Assembly (NCBI GenBank): GCA_016286345.1
Contig: JAEESL010000007.1
Location: 1 to 46,720, forward strand
Reading direction: 5' to 3'
DNA: 46,720 nt
DNA from: Dehalococcoidales bacterium
GTDB lineage: Bacteria; Chloroflexota; Dehalococcoidia; Dehalococcoidales; UBA1222
Positions 40,096 to 45,855 of the stretch are shown piece after piece; the first letter of the stretch is position 1; each line of letters opens with the position of its first letter. The notes below the pieces were generated by a model. The model was not told the DNA's origin. It ran no database searches and saw only the letters and a program-made list of their open reading frames with translations. Both the position numbers and the translations under genes were made by a program.

Positions 40096-41589
40096 TTAGT
40101 CGCCTTCTTCAGCCAATGCTTTTTCCTGCATTTCCTGGATTTCAGGGAAGGCAGAGAGCATGGGCTTCTCGTTTACGCCTTTGATAACACGATTCTTGTA
40201 GTTCTTTGTGACAGCAGCAACGATACCGCTGAGGCAGATAACACCGATAAGGTTCGGGATGGCCATCAAAGCGTTGAAGATATCACTGATATCGATTGCC
40301 ATGCTGACATCAGCAGCACTGCCGAGAATAACTGCTACTACGAAGAGTATCTTGTAGAGCAATGTGGCTTTAGTGCCGAAGAGATATTCCCAAGCCTTGG
40401 TGCCATAGTGGCTCCAGCCAAGGATGGTTGTGAATGCAAAGAGAACAAGAGCAATAGCCAGGAAGACACCGCCGACAGTACCAAGGTGAAGAGTGAATGC
40501 TTCTGAAGCAAGACCCATCTTGGTATAACCGGATGATGCACCGGTTTCGAGATCAACAAGACCTGAAGTGAGGATGACCAGAGCGGTCATTGTACAAACA
40601 ATCATGGTATCGAAGAATACTTCGAAGATACCCCACATACCCTGGACTACAGGTTCTTTAACGTTGGATGATGAGTGGACCATAACTGAGGAACCGAGAC
40701 CGGCTTCGTTGGAGAAGATACCTCGTTTGAAACCCATCTTGATTGCCTGGGCGATGATGGCACCGCCGATACCGCCGGCAGCGGCTGCGGTGTTGAATGC
40801 ACCCTTGAAAATAGCTGCAAAAGCAGGACCAATGTTACCGGCATTCATAATGATGATGATAAGAGCGCCGATTACATAGAAAACACTCATGAAAGGAACG
40901 ATGACTTCAGCAACCTTGGAGATTCTCTTGATACCACCGATGATAACAAGGAAGACCATGATTGCAACAAAGATACCGACGATCAAAGGAAGATTGATAG
41001 TGGTTTCACCGATTACGCCGGCAATACCTTCGGAGATTGAGATGACCTGTCCCATATTACCGATACCGAAGGAAGCAACGATAGCGAAAATAGCGAATAA
41101 AACACCGAGGATAGGACCAACGGCCTTACCATATTTCATTTTTCCTACGCCGTCACGTAAGAAGTACATGGAACCGCCGGACCATTCGCCGTTTGCATTT
41201 TTACGACGGAAGAAAATACCGAGTAAGTTTTCTGAATAGTTGGTCATCTGACCGAAGAAGGCAGCGAGCCACATCCAGAAGATTGCGCCAGGACCACCAA
41301 CAATGATGGCATAGGAAATACCTGTGATATTACCGGTACCGATAGTAGCTGACATAGCGGTACAAAGAGACTGCCACTGAGAAATGGCGTGTTTATCAGA
41401 AGTGTCTCTGATGTCTTTTCGAGTGAATGCAGAGAAAATTGTTCTCTGGAACCAATGCTTGATGTGTGCGATCTGGAAGACACCGGTTCGGATGGTGACC
41501 AGGATACCAGTACCAAGAATCAGGATAATGGTAGGCCAACTCCACACGAAATCATCAACTGCGGTAACAATGTTTTGTAATGTTTCCAT
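40096..41589 (-). CDS. Alanine/glycine:cation symporter (AGCS family)
   Basis: GTGILVTIRTGVFQIAHIKHWF, MSATIGTGNITGISYAIIVGGPGAIFWMWLAAFFGQMTNYSENLLG, GIFSNEAGLGSSVMVHSS. Confidence 0.95.
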   Translation of the reverse strand: METLQNIVTAVDDFVWSWPTIILILGTGILVTIRTGVFQIAHIKHWFQRTIFSAFTRKDIRDTSDKHAISQWQSLCTAMSATIGTGNITGISYAIIVGGPGAIFWMWLAAFFGQMTNYSENLLGIFFRRKNANGEWSGGSMYFLRDGVGKMKYGKAVGPILGVLFAIFAIVASFGIGNMGQVISISEGIAGVIGETTINLPLIVGIFVAIMVFLVIIGGIKRISKVAEVIVPFMSVFYVIGALIIIIMNAGNIGPAFAAIFKGAFNTAAAAGGIGGAIIAQAIKMGFKRGIFSNEAGLGSSVMVHSSSNVKEPVVQGMWGIFEVFFDTMIVCTMTALVILTSGLVDLETGASSGYTKMGLASEAFTLHLGTVGGVFLAIALVLFAFTTILGWSHYGTKAWEYLFGTKATLLYKILFVVAVILGSAADVSMAIDISDIFNALMAIPNLIGVICLSGIVAAVTKNYKNRVIKGVNEKPMLSAFPEIQEMQEKALAEEGD

Positions 41590-41645: not shown

Positions 41646-41700
41646 GAAAAGAACAGAGGATAAATTGTTATTTATTAACAATAAACAAGATATCCTCCGT
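41646..41700 (-). terminator. Candidate expression-platform terminator of the glycine riboswitch
   Basis: Minus strand ACGGAGGATA...TATCCTCTGT hairpin with AT-rich inner stem, then TCTTTTCC. Confidence 0.6.
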
Positions 41701-41850
41701 CCTTTTGCCTGAGAGATTACTCATTTGCCCCTTCGGCATCCAATTTAATGGACTTCTCCAGAGTGTCATCAACAGACAGTCTCGCATAAAATATGCACCT
41801 GAGAGTGTCACCCCTTCGGTCAGCTGTTACAGCTATCTCCTGCCTGTATC
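41697..41850 (-). ncRNA. Tandem glycine riboswitch (two aptamers)
   Basis: Minus strand: GGAGATAG...ACCGAAGGGGTGACACTCTCAGGTGCATATTTTATGCGAGACTGTC (aptamer 1), then TCTGGAGAAGTCC...GCCGAAGGGGCAAATGAGTAATCTCTCAGGCAAAAGGACGG (aptamer 2), upstream of an AGCS symporter. Confidence 0.93.
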
Positions 41851-41982: not shown

Positions 41983-42019
41983 AAAAAAAATATCCACACT
42001 ATTCATAGCATGGATATCT
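41983..42019 (-). terminator. Rho-independent terminator of the lip/ccdA operon
   Basis: Minus strand GATATCCATGCTATGAATAGTGTGGATATTTTTTTT, after the last gene of the operon. Confidence 0.85.
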
Positions 42020-42056
42020 TTTGGTAAATCAATTAAAGAGCTTCAGTAGGAGAGAA

Positions 42057-42815
42057 CTAAATCAGCCTGTAATCCTTGAAACCGTCCTCATCAGAACTGC
42101 CGGTCCAGATATAATCTGCCGGAACCTGCAATGCTCCGTAATTATATGGAACAAGCAGATCATTCAGCTGCTCAGGATGATCCATTTCAAGTTTTAAAAT
42201 CCAGCCATCTGTATAGGCAAATCCCATCACCAGGTTTGAATTGAATAAAACAGCAGTATTGATTTCCAAAACCTTGCCGGAAACAGGCATGAGGAACTCA
42301 ACATTCATTTTAAAGCCGTTAACGTTGCAGAATATCATGTCCTGCTGGAGATGATCTCCCACCGCACATGGAATCGTCATTAAATGACTTGTATCATAGC
42401 CTCCGATCAGCAAAGTTGCCTTCTCAGTTATACCCATAAGGACATTGTTGCCTTCAAGTTTTTTGACCCATACATGATCATAGGAATAGAGACGGTCCAT
42501 AGCAATATGAGATGTACAGCCCGGGATCAGAAACTTGTCGTAATTATCACCGGAACCGACTGTACCGGTGACCGGAACAACTGTAACGGGATCAGCTGTT
42601 GTTGAAGTAGTTGTTATTGATGTGGTCGGATTTGTAACACCGGTTGAATTCGTCGGAGGCATATCAGTTCCGGTTTTAGTTGTTGTTCCGTTTTCTCCGC
42701 ATGACATCAGAGACATTGCCATTATTCCGCCGACAAGCGCACCTGTTCCCTTCAGAAAATTCCTTCTGTTCACAACTTTTTTGTTTGAAAAAGCAAATAG
42801 ATCCTTGTTATCCAT
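42057..42815 (-). CDS. Exported GcvH-like (lipoyl-carrier) lipoprotein with twin-arginine signal
   Basis: NRRNFLKGTGALVGGIMAMSLMSCG (Tat motif + lipobox, Cys39), Thr-rich linker, then YSYDHVWVKKLEGNNVLMGITEKATLL...NVNGFKMNVEFLMPVSGKVLEIN...YTDGWILKLEMDHPEQLNDLL aligned with GcvH. Lys169 falls at the lipoyl-Lys position. RBS AAAGGAG. Confidence 0.8.
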   Translation of the reverse strand: MDNKDLFAFSNKKVVNRRNFLKGTGALVGGIMAMSLMSCGENGTTTKTGTDMPPTNSTGVTNPTTSITTTSTTADPVTVVPVTGTVGSGDNYDKFLIPGCTSHIAMDRLYSYDHVWVKKLEGNNVLMGITEKATLLIGGYDTSHLMTIPCAVGDHLQQDMIFCNVNGFKMNVEFLMPVSGKVLEINTAVLFNSNLVMGFAYTDGWILKLEMDHPEQLNDLLVPYNYGALQVPADYIWTGSSDEDGFKDYRLI

Positions 42816-42828
42816 ACCCCGGCTCCTT

Positions 42829-43719
42829 TTATATTGTCTTACTTTGATTATTTGAACTGCTGATACTTTTCATCGTTTCAGCATAGAAATATTCCGCTTT
42901 AAATGAGCTTCTCATCAGCGGGAATGAGGCCACACCATGAAAGCCCATGTCCTGCCCGATATACAGATATTCCTCAAACTCTTCAGGCGTAACATATCTG
43001 ACTACGTCATGCGCTCCTGCTTCAGGCTGCAGATACTGCCCCAGTGTAAACATGTCACATCCGGCATCTTTTATATCCTGCATGGTCTCGATAACTTCTT
43101 CTTTTGTCTCACCCAATCCAAGCATGATTCCACTCTTTGTCAGCATTTTCCCGTTCAGTTTTTTTGCATTCCTGAGAACATCCAGAGATCTCAGATACGA
43201 AGCCTGCGGACGCATTTCCCTGTACAGCCTTGGAACTGTTTCAATGTTGTGTCCAAGAACACACGGTGATGCATCTATTACTGTCTTCAGTGCATTAATA
43301 TCACCTTTGAAATCCGGTATAAGAACTTCAACATTGATCGAAGGGACATTCTCATGCAGAAGATTGATGGTTTCAGCATAATGAGAAGCTCCTCCGTCAG
43401 GAAGATCATCTCTGGTGACAGAAGTTAAAAACATATATGTCAGACTCAGCCGTTTTGCCACTTCCACCATTTTCATCGGTTCGTCAGGATCAAGTGGTTC
43501 AGGGTTGTGATGATTGACTGAACAAAACGTGCATGCTCTGGTGCAGTGATTTCCCATAAGAAGGAAAGCCATATCGTGGGGAACACAGTCAACTCTGTTG
43601 GGACAGTTTCCGCTGTCACATATGGTGTGAAGCTTAAGACTGCTCAAAATAACTTCTGATTCCCGGAACTGACCGGATCTGGGTATAGGTTTGTTGAACC
43701 ACTCAGGCATTTTTTCCAC
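42829..43719 (-). CDS. lipA: Lipoyl synthase (radical SAM)
   Basis: Auxiliary cluster CDSGNCPNRVDC, radical-SAM CTRACTFC, C-terminal MRSSF. Start placed at GTG 43719 (RBS GGGAGGC); the longer ORF to 43764 is possible. Confidence 0.93.
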   Translation of the reverse strand: MEKMPEWFNKPIPRSGQFRESEVILSSLKLHTICDSGNCPNRVDCVPHDMAFLLMGNHCTRACTFCSVNHHNPEPLDPDEPMKMVEVAKRLSLTYMFLTSVTRDDLPDGGASHYAETINLLHENVPSINVEVLIPDFKGDINALKTVIDASPCVLGHNIETVPRLYREMRPQASYLRSLDVLRNAKKLNGKMLTKSGIMLGLGETKEEVIETMQDIKDAGCDMFTLGQYLQPEAGAHDVVRYVTPEEFEEYLYIGQDMGFHGVASFPLMRSSFKAEYFYAETMKSISSSNNQSKTI

Positions 43720-44395
43720 GGCATGCCTCCCGGATCTGATCAGACGATATTTCTTCGAGTTCAAGATCGAATATTGTTTTTAATTCGTTTGCCAGAGCAT
43801 TCTTCACATCTATCATGTCCACTTCTTTATCTAATTCCTTTTCCATGGATGTAGCCCTGACACCTTTCAACCCGCATGGATTGATACTGTCAAACAGTTC
43901 AAGATCAGGCTTTACATTTAATGATATACCGTGCGATGTCACACTCTGCCTTAAATGCATTCCTATCGCACTTATCTGCCTGTCATCTTTGAATACACCC
44001 GGATGACTGTCCTTTCTGACGGTATCTAAACCAAAGTTCGCAAGAGTGTTGATCACACTGGTCTCAAGCTCTTTTACCAGATCACGTACGATTCCCTTTC
44101 TGTAATCAAGCTTGAAAATCATATAAGCCACCAGCTGCCCGGGACAATGAAGTGTTACATCTCCGCCACGGTCGGAATCGATAACTTCAATCCCGTGTTT
44201 TTTTATTTCCGATTCACTCCACAGGATATTATTTTTATCGGATGTACTTCCGCATGTTATGACAGGTTTATGTTCGGTGAAGAGTATCACACTGTCGATT
44301 GCTTCCTCACGTCTTAAATCGCCAAGTCTGTTCTGAAGCATCCATGCATCTTCATATTCAGTTAATCCGATATCACATATCCAACAATGCTGCAT
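43703..44395 (-). CDS. lipB: Lipoyl(octanoyl) transferase-like protein
   Basis: SDRGGDVTLHCPGQLVAYMIF, SAIGMHLRQSVTSHGISLNV, INPCGLKGV. The residue usually Lys before IxxIG is Gln140. Confidence 0.88.
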   Translation of the reverse strand: MQHCWICDIGLTEYEDAWMLQNRLGDLRREEAIDSVILFTEHKPVITCGSTSDKNNILWSESEIKKHGIEVIDSDRGGDVTLHCPGQLVAYMIFKLDYRKGIVRDLVKELETSVINTLANFGLDTVRKDSHPGVFKDDRQISAIGMHLRQSVTSHGISLNVKPDLELFDSINPCGLKGVRATSMEKELDKEVDMIDVKNALANELKTIFDLELEEISSDQIREACRGKNA

Positions 44396-44405
44396 TAATT
44401 CAGTC

Positions 44406-45116
44406 CTAAAAATTCTGTATTATGATATAAATACCCACAATAATAAATACGATCGACATCGCAATCTTGATGTATTTGTTAAATTTGGTGATGTTATTGA
44501 TCCATCTGCCCACAAACTGGAATCCAAGAGCTATCAGTGCCCCGAAGACAACCACCGGAAGAGCCGTTCCAACAGCATAGAATACCGGAAGCACAACACC
44601 TCCTGATGTAGCGAATGCCATCGGAAGCAGCGCCATGAAGAAAAGAATAGCGCTGTATGGACAAAACGTGATACCCATGAACAATCCCATAATAAGCGAT
44701 CCGATGTATCCCTTATCTTTGACTTTATCGATAACTTTATATGTGGTACCGCCTGAACCTAAGCTCAGTTTGTCAATAATAAGAAGCAGAATACCGGCTA
44801 TGATGAAAACCGGACCCAGAATATATGTGCCGACAGTCTGAAGAAAATTCTGTATAGCAGGAGTGTCTAGTCCCAGCAAAATGATGATTCCGCCAAGTAA
44901 TGACAGTGCTATAACACTTCCCAGCATATAGATCAGAGATGAAAACAGAGCTGCGCCTTTTTTAGTCGCATCACGACTGATATATGCCAGAGCAGCAACA
45001 TTTGATGCCATGGTACACGGTCCCAATGCGGCAAGCAATCCGAAGCAAATTGCCGAAACAATCGGAAATGTGCTGTTAATTGCTATCATATGAAAGAAAT
45101 CAGATAAGGCAGTCAT
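44406..45116 (-). CDS. CcdA/DsbD-like transmembrane thiol-disulfide protein
   Basis: LAALGPCTMASNVAALAYISR and GITFCPYSAILFFMALLP paired membrane cysteines; six-TM pattern. Confidence 0.85.
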   Translation of the reverse strand: MTALSDFFHMIAINSTFPIVSAICFGLLAALGPCTMASNVAALAYISRDATKKGAALFSSLIYMLGSVIALSLLGGIIILLGLDTPAIQNFLQTVGTYILGPVFIIAGILLLIIDKLSLGSGGTTYKVIDKVKDKGYIGSLIMGLFMGITFCPYSAILFFMALLPMAFATSGGVVLPVFYAVGTALPVVVFGALIALGFQFVGRWINNITKFNKYIKIAMSIVFIIVGIYIIIQNF

Positions 45117-45127
45117 TTGATTTATCC

Positions 45128-45607
45128 TTAGATCGCATTCAACGCATTATCAATTTCTCTATGCAGTGTATTGAAAAATTTCTGTTTTAACACTTCATTC
45201 TTGCCGGTTGTATCCGTATACATCCAGATTGTATTAACAGCTTTCCTGTTGCTTACACCATCTTTCCAGGTTGTAATGTAGAAAGAGTAAGCCGGGGAAT
45301 CATATTCAGCCTGAATAGCAGAATTAGCAGAATCGGTAGTGTCATATTTTGCGAATGTAATTGTTCCGTCTGCAAGATATTTTTCGTAATCATTCATGAT
45401 AGTGTCAATCCACTGTGATGCCAGATTAAGACAGAAACAGGCATCAGATTCATAGAAATATGTGATTTCAACACAATTATCCTTAGTGCCTGTAATGCCT
45501 GAAGCAGTATTGGTAGCTGTATTTGTTTGTGTTTTTGATGATGAACAGCCGACAACACATGACAAAACAGATATCAAAGCAATAAATACTACAAACAGCC
45601 TTTTCAT
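45128..45607 (-). CDS. Lipoprotein with thioredoxin-like fold and CFC motif
   Basis: Lipobox LSCVVGCSSS; VEITYFYESDACFCLNLASQWIDTIMNDYEKYLADGTITFAKYDTT resembles Trx-like CxxC/CxC proteins found with CcdA. Confidence 0.65.
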   Translation of the reverse strand: MKRLFVVFIALISVLSCVVGCSSSKTQTNTATNTASGITGTKDNCVEITYFYESDACFCLNLASQWIDTIMNDYEKYLADGTITFAKYDTTDSANSAIQAEYDSPAYSFYITTWKDGVSNRKAVNTIWMYTDTTGKNEVLKQKFFNTLHREIDNALNAI

Positions 45608-45855
45608 GCCTCTATCCCCTCCGCTTTTCTGATGTATTTCAGTATTTCTTCTTTAGATGGCACTTTGCCATATGAAACAACTTTTTCATCGATAACCAGT
45701 GCAGGTGTACCAAGTACGGGATATGCCATGATCAATGACATATCACTGATGTGCGTCACCTGTGCATCAATGTTGTTTTCCTCAATTACTTCACTGACCA
45801 AACCGAAAAGTTTATTACATTTCGGACAACCGGTACCCAATACTTTAATGAACAT
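45604..45855 (-). CDS. Small thioredoxin-like protein (TM0996/MTH895-type)
   Basis: IKVLGTGCPKCNKLFGLVSEVIEEN...LGTPALVIDEKVVSYGKVPSKEEI. Confidence 0.9.
   Translation of the reverse strand: MFIKVLGTGCPKCNKLFGLVSEVIEENNIDAQVTHISDMSLIMAYPVLGTPALVIDEKVVSYGKVPSKEEILKYIRKAEGIEA

Follow-up and report, generated by a model that had tools for sequence, protein, structure and literature searches.

Lipoic acid serves on 2-oxoacid dehydrogenases, in glycine cleavage and in the oxidation of sulfur, and it is not known to work outside the cytoplasm or the interior of an organelle. LbpA of the Hdr-like sulfur-oxidation pathway is an H-like lipoyl protein that acts outside glycine metabolism; lipoylation genes are linked to it, and it has a conserved Cys near its N-terminus (PMC6067878). 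It shows that lipoyl proteins of the H-like kind are not confined to central metabolism (PMC6067878). A term search of the LbpA paper found no mention of a signal peptide or lipoprotein (PMC6067878), and no report of an exported or periplasmic lipoyl protein was found in the open-access literature that we searched, subscription journals being outside the scope. On a Prevotella plasmid, ArsF, ArsG, a thioredoxin, a permease, ArsC and ACR3 are found together; PMC2963123 contains no lipo- term in the lipoyl sense.

Here we analysed a 46,720-nucleotide stretch of DNA (the window) from a bacterium of the Dehalococcoidales (Chloroflexota), in which a gene for a GcvH-like protein shares an operon with lipB, lipA and ars genes. 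The protein has the fold, the hairpin lysine and the PVSG, GW and LL..Y motifs in common with GcvH. It differs from GcvH in a predicted Tat signal, a lipobox, a linker, an extra Cys and an AxDR motif, and its genome family is without GcvT or over-cut-off GcvP. LbpA is linked to hdr-like genes and has conserved N- and C-terminal Cys residues, whereas the protein described here is linked to ars genes and has the N-terminal Cys only. The lipoylation genes differ as well; sLpl(AB) and LipS1/S2 are of the LbpA type (PMC10332631), whereas canonical LipA and LipB are encoded here. As in known arsEFG-type operons, ArsE, an ArsF-like protein, ArsG and ArsP are encoded in one operon. The Prevotella operon, in contrast, is without lipA, lipB and gcvH, and the window operon has altered cysteine motifs in ArsG and ArsF. 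The locus also resembles a CcdA/DsbD conduit, with a DsbD_2 domain, two membrane cysteines and adjoining genes for a cytoplasmic thioredoxin and an outer thiol protein, although here a lipoyl arm is proposed as acceptor, either in place of a protein CxxC or in addition to one.

A GcvH-like protein with a predicted export signal

The gene of the GcvH-like protein lies at 42057..42815 on the minus strand, begins with ATG and encodes 252 amino acids. The N-terminus has RRNFLK at residues 17-22 (twin arginine at 17-18) and the lipobox LMSC with Cys39. A Thr/Pro-rich linker follows from residue 40 to about residue 95, and then come the conserved Cys100, AxDR (residues 105-108) and the GcvH fold, residues 109-226 of which match the Pfam GCV_H domain (E 1.2e-14, 54.7 bits against a cut-off of 22.2). 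The predicted lipoylation site is Lys169, 8 residues ahead of Pro177, and its codon AAA is at 42309..42311 on the minus strand (read 42311-42309). A spurious or chance ORF was ruled out by conservation.

A profile built from 30 mature domains had E. coli GcvH (3a8i) as its best PDB match (E 2.5e-38), and in this alignment Lys169 stands opposite the lipoyl lysine of AESVKAASD. The AlphaFold2 model of the mature domain has a mean pLDDT of 90.1 and a pTM of 0.86, and it places Lys169 (model residue 83) in the hairpin turn between strands 75-81 and 85-89. The top 22 structural matches in Foldseek were H proteins only, some of them complexed with human lipoyl synthase or E. coli T protein. The best match was 1onl (E 8.5e-12, TM 0.87 by target), and the lipoylated E. 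coli H protein 3ab9 was also matched (TM 0.90 by target length). The protein scored 47.7 bits with the GcvH equivalog TIGR00527, under the cut-off of 115.85, and only 25.4 bits with the GcvH-related NCBIfam NF045810 (cut-off 150); GcvH models gave the best scores.

The Tat signal was slightly short of the cut-off in the Pfam TAT_signal model (20.1 vs 22.7) and barely above it in TIGR01409 (17.5 vs 16.7). An SRRxFLK-type motif, a hydrophobic stretch, a lipobox Cys and TatC, TatA and Lgt in the genome together meet what is expected of a Tat-exported lipoprotein, and from these the location is inferred. Export is very likely, although it is inferred and not shown. Lipoylation is likely; it too is inferred, and indirectly, from the conserved lysine and from lipB and lipA in the operon.

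The first-pass annotation, which was made from sequence alone, had described the coordinates of this ORF, RRNFLK, LMSC with Cys39, the Thr/Pro linker and the H-protein fold, and all of these held upon ORF reading, Pfam search and modelling. Its placement of Lys169 (AAA at 42311-42309) at the -8 position of the lipoyl Lys of E. coli GcvH also held in the alignment with 3a8i. It had pointed out that the lysine context is GFKMN rather than of the ESVKA type; this difference is confirmed and might matter for recognition. It had further proposed Tat export of the folded, lipoylated protein, a reading that would fall if the genome lacked Tat or if Lys169 lay off the hairpin turn. Neither is the case, since TatC and two TatA/B-type genes were found and the AlphaFold2 model puts Lys169 in the turn. 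This interpretation is therefore supported, with modification and location still inferred.

Lipoylation and ars genes in one operon

Seven genes are encoded on one strand in the order ArsP, ArsE, ArsF-like, ArsG, LipB, LipA and GcvH-like, with overlaps or gaps of at most 13 bases, and are followed by a hairpin. The first-pass annotation had not noticed the arsP-arsE-arsF-arsG-lipB-lipA part, which hints at function. ArsP is an ArsP_1 permease whose gene is truncated at the end of the contig (45862..46720, minus strand, as are all the following features). ArsE (45604..45855) is a cytoplasmic thioredoxin of the ArsE family with CPKC (TIGR00412, 99.3 bits, cut-off 62). The ArsF-like lipoprotein (45128..45607) has a Sec-type signal and a CFC motif. 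ArsG (44406..45116) is a CcdA/DsbD_2-type membrane protein with cysteines in GPCT and FCPYS (NF040495, 213.5 bits, cut-off 200). LipB, the octanoyltransferase, is at 43703..44395 (TIGR00214, 151 bits, cut-off 83.6), and LipA, the lipoyl synthase, is at 42829..43764 (TIGR00510 above cut-off), with its true start probably at an ATG near 43710. A terminator-like hairpin of 17 pairs with a T run (41985..42022) lies directly 3' of the GcvH-like gene and is therefore the probable end of the operon.

Among the arsEFG families of the locus, ArsE and ArsG exceed their cut-offs, whereas the ArsF-like protein reaches 30.8 bits with NF040494, below the cut-off of 60. The model of the ArsF-like protein (pLDDT 82) is thioredoxin-like, and its best PDB matches are PDIs and thioredoxins with E from 2.5e-3, which is suggestive only. 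ArsG matches Pfam DsbD_2 and has two membrane cysteines; its NCBIfam name is that of an efflux permease, not of an electron conduit.

Downstream of the operon, a glycine riboswitch (41687-41771, minus strand) precedes a gene of the Na:alanine symporter family (40096-41589, minus strand), in a genome without GcvT or over-cut-off GcvP. We considered the GcvH-like gene as part of this riboswitch unit and ruled it out because a promoter-like site (TTGACA, 17, TAAAAT) and the terminator-like hairpin separate the two.

Conservation of the motifs and comparison with other ArsG loci

The main clade of exported proteins has 22 lysine-bearing copies, of which 20 have an intact N-terminus, the copy of the window included. 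The RR motif and the lipobox Cys were present in all 20 intact copies. A deep-branching copy in genome G027 is the 21st intact lysine copy and has the RR motif, the lipobox and the lysine, so that the RR motif is found in 21/21. A Cys is located 3 or 5 residues ahead of AxDR in each of the 22 main-clade lysine copies; the G027 copy is without it. In the L041 copy, the lysine, the RR motif and the Cys are all missing, and a Sec-type lipoprotein start is kept. This joint loss, although a single case, fits a need for Tat in exporting a folded, lipoylated protein. The first reading had missed this joint retention or loss of twin-arginine motif and lysine. The ArsF-like lipoproteins have Sec-type signals, and they need no cytoplasmic cofactor.

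Twelve ArsG loci of the order are without the exported protein. They contain ArsR, ArsP, ArsE, ArsF-like and ArsG with varying completeness, some being cut by contig ends, and no LipA, LipB or GcvH was found near any of them. Several have an SBF-family protein after ArsG, the start of which resembles the annotated ACR3 of the Prevotella plasmid (Pfam was run on L106 only). The first membrane cysteine motif of ArsG is GPCT in all 9 linked-type loci and SPCP in all 12 others; L119 was counted as linked type by its GPCT, though the contig end hides its neighbours. In ArsF, the motif is CxC in the linked type and CxxC in the others. Therefore, the lipoyl module accompanies an altered redox pair. 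The PCT/PCP and CxC/CxxC splits track phylogeny and are not independent events.

Tat, lipoate genes and lipoyl users in the genome

The host genome has one TatC gene on contig C102, two adjoining TatA/B-type genes, and Lgt. It has two LipA genes, one in the operon described here (contig C61) and the other on C86, and two LipB genes, one in this operon and the other on C102 downstream of tatC. In the stretch L094:2251-6711 (genome G000), the second lipB is on the same strand as two tatA/B-type genes and tatC and lies slightly downstream of them. A separate lineage for the operon LipA was considered and not supported, as the second LipA of G000 and G003 fell within the operon clade.

Genome-level absences rest on gene-family searches and sequence stretches. 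Neither GcvT nor the E2 of a 2-oxoacid dehydrogenase was found in 10 genomes of the family, and no GcvP in them passed the cut-off; control genomes were positive. The claim of the first-pass annotation that no gcvT or gcvP is in the window thus held and is widened to the genome and the family. A role in glycine cleavage is ruled out because the family is without GcvT or over-cut-off GcvP, and a lipoyl supply to 2-oxoacid dehydrogenase is ruled out because there is no E2. The sole other lipoyl candidate found in the host genome is a cytoplasmic GcvH on C59. LipA was not found in G001 (95% complete), which bears both an exported and a cytoplasmic GcvH (L035, L044); it is possible that G001 salvages lipoate.

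The cytoplasmic GcvH adjoins genes for a dihydrolipoamide dehydrogenase-like protein, YedE, YedF and Se/S-carriers (L031:6777-11983 on C59 of G000, and also L042-L047), in genomes without glycine cleavage.

Distribution and forms of the operon

About 37 families were sampled, and exported copies were found in three families of one order of Dehalococcoidia. None was found outside the order in the class and phylum samples by profile scan (E 1e-36). A narrow contig search gave a match in KR_bin-3015, an uncultured Dehalococcoidia bacterium, and nothing outside that class; among plasmid relatives, only ordinary GcvH was seen. The exported domains group in a single clade, apart from the cytoplasmic domains (100/100). 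The G027 copy (L142) branches at the base of this clade and adjoins ArsP, and an ArsF-ArsG-LipB-LipA set is on a different contig of the same genome.

Two kinds of ars operon hold 14/20 loci. The form ArsR-ArsP-ArsE-ArsF-ArsG-GcvH-LipB-LipA was found, whole or partial, at 8 loci. The other form (6 loci) has ArsR, ArsD, ArsA, a membrane-anchored ORF, a DsbD-like protein, GcvH, LipB and LipA, although the order varies and not all are in each. The other 6/20 loci are outside recognised ars operons; at one of them, L085, which has no ars genes, the exported GcvH is accompanied by a DsbD_2 protein and LipA, and G002 and G001 have solo exported copies. LipA is in the operon at 13/20 loci. The most constant neighbour is a CcdA/DsbD-like protein, present as ArsG at 8 loci, in the 6 loci of the ArsD/ArsA form, and at L085.

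Proposed mechanism and alternatives

We propose a Tat-exported lipoyl carrier, fed by a CcdA-like protein, for thiol or arsenic chemistry outside the cytoplasm. The sequence itself shows the operon and its motifs, their conservation, a predicted fold, and Tat and Lgt in the genome. We infer the lipoylation, the export, the flow of electrons and a role with arsenic, and we favour the whole scheme by a modest margin. The GcvH-like protein would be made in the cytoplasm, where Lys169 would be lipoylated by LipB and LipA of the neighbouring genes. It would then fold, leave via Tat and be lipid-anchored through Cys39 on the outer face of the membrane, and its outward lipoyl arm would be a dithiol/disulfide carrier. 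The electron source would most likely be the cytoplasmic thioredoxin ArsE, via the CcdA/DsbD-like ArsG, which may pass electrons to the lipoyl arm either directly or by way of ArsF, a thioredoxin-like lipoprotein. Arsenic detoxification would be the most probable client; an exported arsenical may be reduced by the lipoyl arm, or trivalent arsenic may be bound by both sulfurs of the lipoyl group together with Cys100, which is conserved.

The CcdA-fed relay, in which electron transfer is inferred, is the safer part of this scheme because a CcdA-like neighbour accompanies the protein more consistently than ars genes do, and the balance of evidence leans slightly towards it. For arsenic as the client, with its binding or action inferred, the case is evenly poised. 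Matches to ArsP, ArsE, ArsG, ArsD, ArsA and ArsR among the neighbours are in favour of the arsenic link, and LipA in the operon at 13 of the 20 loci, despite a further LipA (C86) and LipB in the genome of the window itself, is in favour of the scheme. Several points are against the scheme. The Gly-Phe-Lys-Met context, as opposed to the usual Glu-Ser-x-Lys-Ala, could possibly affect recognition. The G027 copy is without the Cys, six loci are beyond recognised ars operons, and G001 is without a detected LipA. In addition, NCBIfam calls ArsG an efflux permease, and the ArsF-like score is below the cut-off. A bolder reading, that this is the first extracytoplasmic lipoyl system, with dedicated LipB/LipA, Tat export on an H protein and CcdA-like reduction, for the detoxification of arsenic outside the cell, is one that we are inclined to doubt slightly more than to believe.

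Trivalent arsenic classically attacks vicinal dithiols, lipoic acid foremost among them. It is possible that the protein is an arsenic-trapping lipoprotein and not an electron carrier, in which a dihydrolipoyl arm and Cys100 would make a three-sulfur site that binds trivalent arsenic outside the membrane after its export by ArsP. The Cys before AxDR, which is invariant in the 22 main-clade lysine copies and lost with the lysine in L041, supports this, as do ArsP, ArsD and ArsA as neighbours. However, trapping alone needs no CcdA-like protein, yet this is the most constant neighbour, and the Cys is missing in G027; there are no binding data, and the distance between Cys100 and Lys169 is unmeasured. 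It is unlikely that the protein is an exported relative of LbpA whose task is to carry sulfane sulfur, or to handle selenium, instead of arsenic. A conserved Cys in the N-terminal region is also present in LbpA and absent from GcvH (PMC6067878), and the cytoplasmic GcvH of these genomes sits among YedE, YedF and Se/S-carrier genes. On the other hand, the neighbours here are ars and not hdr or sox genes, the second, C-terminal Cys of LbpA is missing, and NF045810 falls far below its cut-off, with GcvH models scoring best.

Through a CcdA-type relay, the protein might instead serve the reduction of disulfides outside the cytoplasm in general, or the quality control of proteins, with the ars linkage as mere genomic company. 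L085, which pairs the exported protein with a DsbD_2 protein and LipA in the absence of ars genes, and the solo copies in G002 and G001 are consistent with this. We regard it as unlikely, because ars operons of two different kinds contain 14 of the 20 loci. Least plausible, and very unlikely in our view, is a degenerate H protein that is a plain lipoprotein, unlipoylated or unexported. The lysine context unlike that of GcvH and the Pfam TAT_signal score slightly below its cut-off would agree with degeneration, but the lysine is invariant across a diverse clade, the hairpin is intact in the model, and the lysine and RR are lost together.

If the scheme of a Tat-exported lipoyl carrier is true, an outward lipoyl arm would extend lipoate chemistry to the cell surface, and lipoate would gain a role in resistance to arsenic, a poison that classically attacks lipoate. 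It would also help to explain lipoate genes in small Dehalococcoidia genomes without a known lipoyl enzyme.

Two further loci were observed. At L081:2636-5720, a Tat-type [2Fe-2S] protein and a molybdopterin hydroxylase subunit are encoded near an exported GcvH and LipB-LipA. In G074, a cytoplasmic fusion of DGC and GcvH domains (L141:125-973) keeps the lipoyl lysine. The other genes of its operon (L141:987-4842) are for two additional DGC proteins, for a lipoprotein that is thioredoxin-like, for a DsbD protein and for a pump of the SBF/ACR3-like kind, and this is a further tie of a lipoyl domain to arsenic-type genes.
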